Under the pieces are notes generated by a model, which searched no databases, had not been told where the DNA came from, and saw only the letters and a list, made by a program, of their open reading frames with translations. DNA of 5,676 nt from Akkermansiaceae bacterium (GTDB lineage: Bacteria; Verrucomicrobiota; Verrucomicrobiia; Verrucomicrobiales; Akkermansiaceae): positions 1 to 5,676 of the forward strand of contig JALOTR010000225.1 of NCBI GenBank assembly GCA_025457805.1, given 5' to 3'. The position numbers were made by a program, and so were the translations under genes. The first letter of the stretch is position 1. Each line of letters begins with the position of its first letter. Positions 1-321 of this stretch are shown in pieces.

Positions 1-141
1 GTGCATGACGCAGACGTACTGCTTCCCGCTCTTGAGAAGGTGGTGAACGGACTTCGTTGCGTCGCCGAGGCCCGTCACGAGGACACCAGTAACCATAGGG
101 TCGAGCGTGCCTGAGTGCCCCGCTTTGTCGATGCCGAGGAT
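1..141 (-). other. Cbf5/TruB pseudouridine synthase-like segment, probably of foreign or archaeal type
   Basis: In the same minus-strand frame, residues from about 61 on read ILGIDKAGHSGTLDP, then MVTGVLVTGLGDATK and, near the edge, SGKQYVCVMH. GHSGTLDP carries the catalytic aspartate of the TruB/Cbf5 family (Asp74 of this frame, codon 102-100). The valine in 'VTG' and the GKxYVCxMH ending resemble archaeal Cbf5 and eukaryotic dyskerin, the guide-RNA-dependent enzymes of H/ACA particles; bacterial TruB usually has 'LATG' and a different strand there. Third-position GC in this segment is high (about 34 of 43 codons end in G or C), so composition does not obviously separate it from its neighbours. 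The family assignment is sure enough. That it belongs to the same genome as the rest of the window is not. Only about 43 codons are visible and both the start and the end of such a gene are missing. Confidence 0.8.
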
Positions 142-321
142 ATCGAAAAAATGGGTGGGAAAAACGGCGGTCGTGCCTTCGCCCACGCCGATGATGCCGA
201 TTTCCTGGCTTCGCACCAACTCCACCTTCAGGGAGGGCAGCATGCGGCGCAGGGTGAGCGCGGCAATCAAGCCGGCGCTGCCGCCACCAAGAACCAAAAC
301 CGACTTGATCGAATCATCCAT
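1..321 (-). CDS. Chimeric partial frame: flavin-dependent halogenase N-terminus joined in frame to Cbf5/TruB-like segment
   Basis: The frame is open from ATG at 321 to the left edge (107 codons seen, no stop), so the C-terminus is missing. Residues 8-17 (VLVLGGGSAG) form the FAD-binding GxGxxG strand-turn-helix. Residues 41-51 (IGIIGVGEGTT) and the following VFPTHFF are typical of tryptophan-halogenase-type flavoenzymes, which use FADH2, O2 and halide to halogenate an aromatic substrate. The halogenase pattern stops at about residue 64. The family's usual continuation, including the active-site lysine segment, is absent, and residues 65-107 instead match the pseudouridine synthase Cbf5/TruB. 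In-frame ATGs also exist at 336 and 345; I chose 321 because it puts the FAD motif near the N-terminus, as usual. Upstream, TTGACC (372-367) lies 17 bp from a poor -10 (TGCCAT, 349-344). The frame starts 80 bp after purK on the same strand. The halogenase identity of the first 60 residues is fairly sure; the fusion may be an assembly artefact. Confidence 0.75.
   Translation of the reverse strand, partial: MDDSIKSVLVLGGGSAGLIAALTLRRMLPSLKVELVRSQEIGIIGVGEGTTAVFPTHFFDILGIDKAGHSGTLDPMVTGVLVTGLGDATKSVHHLLKSGKQYVCVMH

Follow-up and report, generated by a model that had tools for sequence, protein, structure and literature searches.

A chimera most likely forms the left end of the contig, with the beginning of a bacterial halogenase gene joined to part of a gene for an archaeal-type Cbf5, and the join probably arose when reads of a mixed sample were assembled. 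Judged from sequence, the single reading frame that runs through both parts (window positions 321-1) probably does not represent a genuine gene fusion but an artefact of sequencing and assembly. Two unrelated protein families share one frame here, the two halves have different taxonomic homes, the frame lies where the contig ends, and the proteins, genomes, and viral contigs that were searched yielded no further example. The window, by which the whole analyzed stretch of 5,676 nucleotides is meant, is the complete contig C402 of its assembly. It belongs to a bin assigned to an Akkermansiaceae bacterium that comprises 3,950,458 bases in 736 contigs and is 59.16% complete and 1.39% contaminated.

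The frame starts with an ATG at position 321 of the minus strand, encounters no stop codon down to base 1, and leaves the contig after 107 residues. Both of its protein parts are recognized well above chance by Pfam, NCBIfam, and PDB matches. These matches confirm what the first-pass annotation had read from the letters, namely one minus-strand frame that opens as an FAD halogenase and continues as a Cbf5 core. The foreign piece makes up the last 120 to 141 bases at the left end of the contig (Table 1). When the two sides of the join are compared by base composition, no signal emerges: the G+C content amounts to 0.61 in positions 1-129 and 0.59 in positions 130-321 (0.79 and 0.77 at third codon positions), both sides being near 60%.

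Table 1. Parts of the frame at the left end of the contig, in window coordinates.
Feature	Position	Strand	Basis
First 60 to 67 residues of a tryptophan-halogenase-type flavin protein with GGGSAG and GVGEGTT; bacterial part belonging to the contig itself	121..321	-	PF04820, 76% identity to G078
Overlap ILGIDKA, 21 bases, fitting both families; join in or beside the overlap	121..141	-	Word found in P0003, P0085, L033, and L135
Archaeal-type Cbf5 fragment with GHSGTLDP, likely foreign, truncated by the contig end	1..141	-	NF003280 63.1 bits, archaeal loci

The frame is adjoined by purK and purE, which occupy window positions 402-2100 on the minus strand. In all four loci of relatives that were examined, purE lies beside purK. 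The frames beyond purK differ among these four loci, and the neighborhood of the halogenase start is therefore not conserved. Genome G078, which provides the closest halogenase match, carries its halogenase and its purK on separate contigs; given this and the variable frames beyond purK, synteny speaks neither for nor against a place of the halogenase start next to purK. Farther along the minus strand, a frame at 2198-3124 encodes a probable archaemetzincin (Peptidase_M54, E 1.2e-16) that carries HETGHMFGIKHCTAYECCMN and has a twin-arginine-like start (MNGRRRFLRMG). Its score on the NCBIfam archmetzin model is 102.7 bits and stays below the cut-off of 145. A signal peptidase I frame (4791-5675, minus strand) exits the contig at its right end.

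The first half of the frame is the start of a tryptophan-halogenase-type flavin protein. Pfam Trp_halogenase (PF04820) matches residues 8-67 (E 1e-13, 51.4 bits) and is recovered as well when the halogenase half is cut out and searched alone (E 2.6e-12), while tryptophan halogenases in the PDB match residues about 1-69. Both the N-terminal FAD-binding motif GxGxxG and a GVGEGTT-like motif are present. The PF04820 match ends at model position 62 of 458, where the Cbf5 sequence begins, and a full-length domain is absent, as the halogenase sequence is over by residue 67. Full-length tryptophan halogenase domains harbor a WxWxIP motif. A conserved lysine of the family is likewise missing: position 78 is a lysine in 18/18 halogenase loci and a threonine in the window. 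We take this lysine to be the catalytic Lys79 of PrnA, the two positions being presumably equivalent in the register of the PDB matches.

At E 1e-15, the halogenase half finds matches in 12 of 73 genomes belonging to the same genus as the contig, counting the bin itself. Its best match outside the bin is a 501-aa frame of the same-genus genome G078 (76% identity over residues 4-66), and P0051, a halogenase piece of 60 residues in the protein set, carries the name of a Verrucomicrobiaceae bacterium. The likeness to the tryptophan-halogenase-type proteins of the genus (PF04820) extends over the first 60 to 67 residues of the frame; the difference consists of the threonine at position 78 and the absent remainder. 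The bin also holds a second frame of this type (L002, G000:C659:3176-4426), which is 508 aa long and covers model positions 2-420 of 458.

The second half is a fragment of an archaeal-type Cbf5. Pfam TruB_N (PF01509) matches residues 61-106 (E 3.8e-15, and E 4.7e-16 when this half is cut out alone), the NCBIfam Cbf5 model NF003280 matches with 63.1 bits (E 1.9e-17) over model positions 53-100 of 323, and archaeal Cbf5 chains in the PDB match residues about 59-107. The curated cut-off of NF003280 is 242, and the fragment in the window lies far below the whole-protein cut-offs of Cbf5 and TruB, as fragments would. The catalytic motif GHSGTLDP is placed at residues 68-75, and GHSG.LDP is present in 99/99 aligned Cbf5 rows. 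The N-terminal KPxGPTSH stretch of Cbf5 is absent upstream of residue 60 in the window. The fragment resembles the archaeal Cbf5 of H/ACA RNPs (NF003280, TIGR00425) over model positions 53-100, with GHSGTLDP and GKxYVC, and differs from it in that the first 52 positions are swapped for halogenase sequence and the contig ends at position 100, short of the C-terminal half and the PUA domain.

All 80 loci that were kept for the Cbf5 half (the best 80 of at least 560) are archaeal by title and 54-74% identical to it. The titles among these best 80 of at least 560 include Woesearchaeota, Nanoarchaeota, Methanoperedens, Methanothrix, and Asgard groups, and the top identity among the matches listed, 74%, belongs to a locus titled Woesearchaeota. 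A bacterial TruB identity was considered for the second half and rejected, because the NCBIfam bacterial TruB model scores 42.2 bits against 63.1 for Cbf5, and the TruB-type frames of relatives (genus and order) are only 45-52% identical, compared with 54-74% for the archaeal loci (best 80 of at least 560). The TruB of the bin itself is a 260-aa frame on C618. The NF003280 cut-off is passed by none of the 73 genomes of the contig's genus versus 4 of 14 control genomes, and the piece in the window, being a fragment, could not itself reach it. Sub-threshold matches to this model occur in 67 of the 73 genomes and include the TruB on C618 and the window's piece. A chimera predicts halves from different taxa, and the taxonomic comparison that the first-pass annotation had proposed returned just that: the halogenase half groups with the contig's own genus (G078, with P0051 from Verrucomicrobiaceae) and the Cbf5 half with archaea (best 80 of at least 560 loci).

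The switch from halogenase to Cbf5 takes place at residues 61-67 and is located by the agreement of each residue with aligned members of the two families. The Cbf5 set contains 99 rows, composed of 80 loci (the best 80 of at least 560) and 19 loci of further scans; six of the 99 rows are second copies of loci among the 80, and others may repeat too. A scan for the Cbf5 half covered 371 genomes of the phylum to which G096 belongs, and 19 of them passed E 1e-16. Residues 45-59 of the window agree with at most 2 of the 99 rows each, with the exception of T50 (89/99). Agreement is still low at D60 (7/99), rises to 88/99 at residue 61, and is complete at residues 68-71 (99/99 each). The KPxGPTSH stretch missing from the window is present upstream in nearly all 99 rows, and none of them therefore has halogenase sequence there. 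Because residues 60-107 served to retrieve the rows, agreement should fall somewhat outside them, yet a near-universal motif should not disappear.

The halogenase set comprises 18 distinct loci out of 25 fetched, the others being repeats; the bin's second halogenase is among the 25. Agreement with these 18 loci amounts to 18, 11, and 10 at columns 62-64 and to 3, 4, and 1 at columns 65-67. It does not exceed 4/18 in columns 69-107, except for P75 and G86, which agree in 18/18 each. Opposite the Cbf5 sequence of the window, the halogenase loci read FY....PTWK.GI.F.WG.

The seven residues at the switch, ILGIDKA, occur in one halogenase piece (P0003) and in three Cbf5s (P0085, L033, and L135), and both families are thus able to carry exactly this word. 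P0003 reads HFFDILGIDKAEFYQ, and the halogenase side therefore reaches residue 67, with P0003 alone supporting residues 65-67 on this side. P0085 reads ILGIDKAGHSGTLDP and scores 254.8 bits on the Cbf5 model, above the cut-off of 242. L033 is titled Candidatus Nanoarchaeia archaeon, and L135 stems from the phylum of a Woesearchaeota genome. The first-pass annotation had placed the crossover on DILGID (144-127, 18 bases). A shared word at the crossover holds, and its extent is refined to ILGIDKA, which spans 21 bases at 121-141 and leaves out D60, a residue that is rare among the Cbf5 rows.

L033 and L135 encode ILGIDKA with codons other than those of the window, and the shared 21-mer is therefore shown as protein and not as DNA. 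Neither source gene could be located as DNA. The search for an archaeal donor gave 69% identity at best, over 144 bases of L141, a Cbf5 locus from the 371 genomes of the phylum of G096. With one mismatch allowed, the 17-base core of the word has a single occurrence in the bin, at the join. In a same-genus relative, 22 of the 23 bases of window 125-147 match positions 10907-10929 of L115, which lie in an unrelated gene, an aconitase (TFDILGIDND; Pfam Aconitase_C). This match shows how readily such a word arises, since FDILGID in G+C-rich codons can recur.

In the proposed mechanism, the halogenase start would run into the Cbf5 piece within the seven codons for the protein word that the two families have in common, and both source genes would have carried about 21 identical bases at the join. 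At this point, an assembler working on a k-mer graph could step from one source to the other, as could template switching while the library was made. Common short-read assemblers usually employ 21 as their smallest k-mer. The tail would then have halted within about one read length (120-141 bases, the read length being assumed), and the source reads would derive from two organisms of one mixed sample.

Against a chimera stand the equal G+C content on either side and the frame that is open across the join; a join on seven shared codons, however, would result in an open frame anyway. The same side of the balance holds the missing source genes, a 21-mer that was seen as a protein word only, and the single occurrence of its 17-base core in the bin. 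Coverage and read support are the usual proof of a chimeric contig. Such contigs are known from metagenome assemblies (PMC8172020, PMC7111523), and the present contig resembles them in combining two taxa and in the contig-end place of the join. According to PMC7111523, scaffolds that join two organisms are rare and recognizable by different phylogenetic profiles on either side, and the two sides differ in this way here. The mock-community chimeras of PMC8172020 joined two similar genomes, unlike the bacterium and the archaeon here. On inferential grounds, the comparisons above support what had been the leading explanation from the first, namely a chimera formed at a shared word during assembly or library making.

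It is rather unlikely that the chimera predates sequencing, i.e., that two DNA pieces were joined by ligation or a template switch while the DNA was amplified or the library prepared, and that one such read ended the contig. In its favor, the foreign tail of 120-141 bases would fit into one short read of assumed length, and the two parts overlap in a brief common word. A lone chimeric read, on the other hand, should generally lose the vote at good coverage, and no sequence result here separates a library chimera from an assembler join.

The same join was sought in independent genomes, as had also been suggested, and was found in none of 94 other protein hits, 58 other genomes, 99 Cbf5 rows, or the viral contigs. 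Among the 95 protein hits obtained with the 107-residue query, only P0002, the protein of the window itself, holds both domains; this search reached proteins of about 59-187 residues, and a longer fusion would escape it. The scan of relatives (59 genomes with the bin) returned no credible match over both parts in the 58 others. One weak match that covers both parts, G011:C21:13233-13457 (query 28-99, 29% identity, E 1.5e-4), was considered as a second join and taken for chance, because it lies opposite a 271-aa frame in a stretch without any Pfam family. Plasmids gave no DNA match. Ten phage records match the Cbf5 half, all with less than 60% identity; in the eight rows listed, two are annotated as truB and six are without annotation. 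The missing halogenase or Cbf5 piece was not found elsewhere in the bin, a weak result at 59% completeness. Outside the window, the halogenase model matches only the 508-aa frame on C659, and TruB_N only the 260-aa frame on C618.

These searches bear on a real recombination in the bacterium, by which an archaeal cbf5 piece would have been inserted into the halogenase gene through a brief common sequence, leaving that gene broken. The single open frame and the equal G+C content on both sides agree with such an event, but it is very improbable given that no second copy appeared in the other protein hits, the other genomes, or the viral contigs, that plasmids gave no match and phage records none of 60% identity or more, and that the join lies within 141 bases of the contig end. 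Very improbable as well is a natural in-frame fusion by microhomology, in which a piece of an archaeal RNA-modification gene would truly have crossed domains into a bacterial halogenase gene via the 21-base word. A functional protein in which halogenase and pseudouridine synthase are fused has nothing but the open frame in its favor and can be practically dismissed: the halogenase match stops inside the FAD domain, the position 78 lysine is replaced by threonine, the Cbf5 part is without its first 52 of 323 model positions, KPxGPTSH included, and a search of the literature on halogenase, Cbf5, and fusion together, with most subscription papers outside its reach, gave none. We infer that a working enzyme is not to be expected from two part domains of unrelated folds.

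With a chimeric contig end as the preferred reading, a hybrid halogenase-Cbf5 protein is not expected in a cell. The protein set that was searched nevertheless lists the frame as P0002, a protein of 124 residues with both domains. The contig would thus illustrate clearly how databases can acquire a false fusion protein through the combination of two unrelated genes, a short shared protein word, a contig end, and an intact frame. Its relevance would lie in the filtering of genes at contig ends and not in biology.
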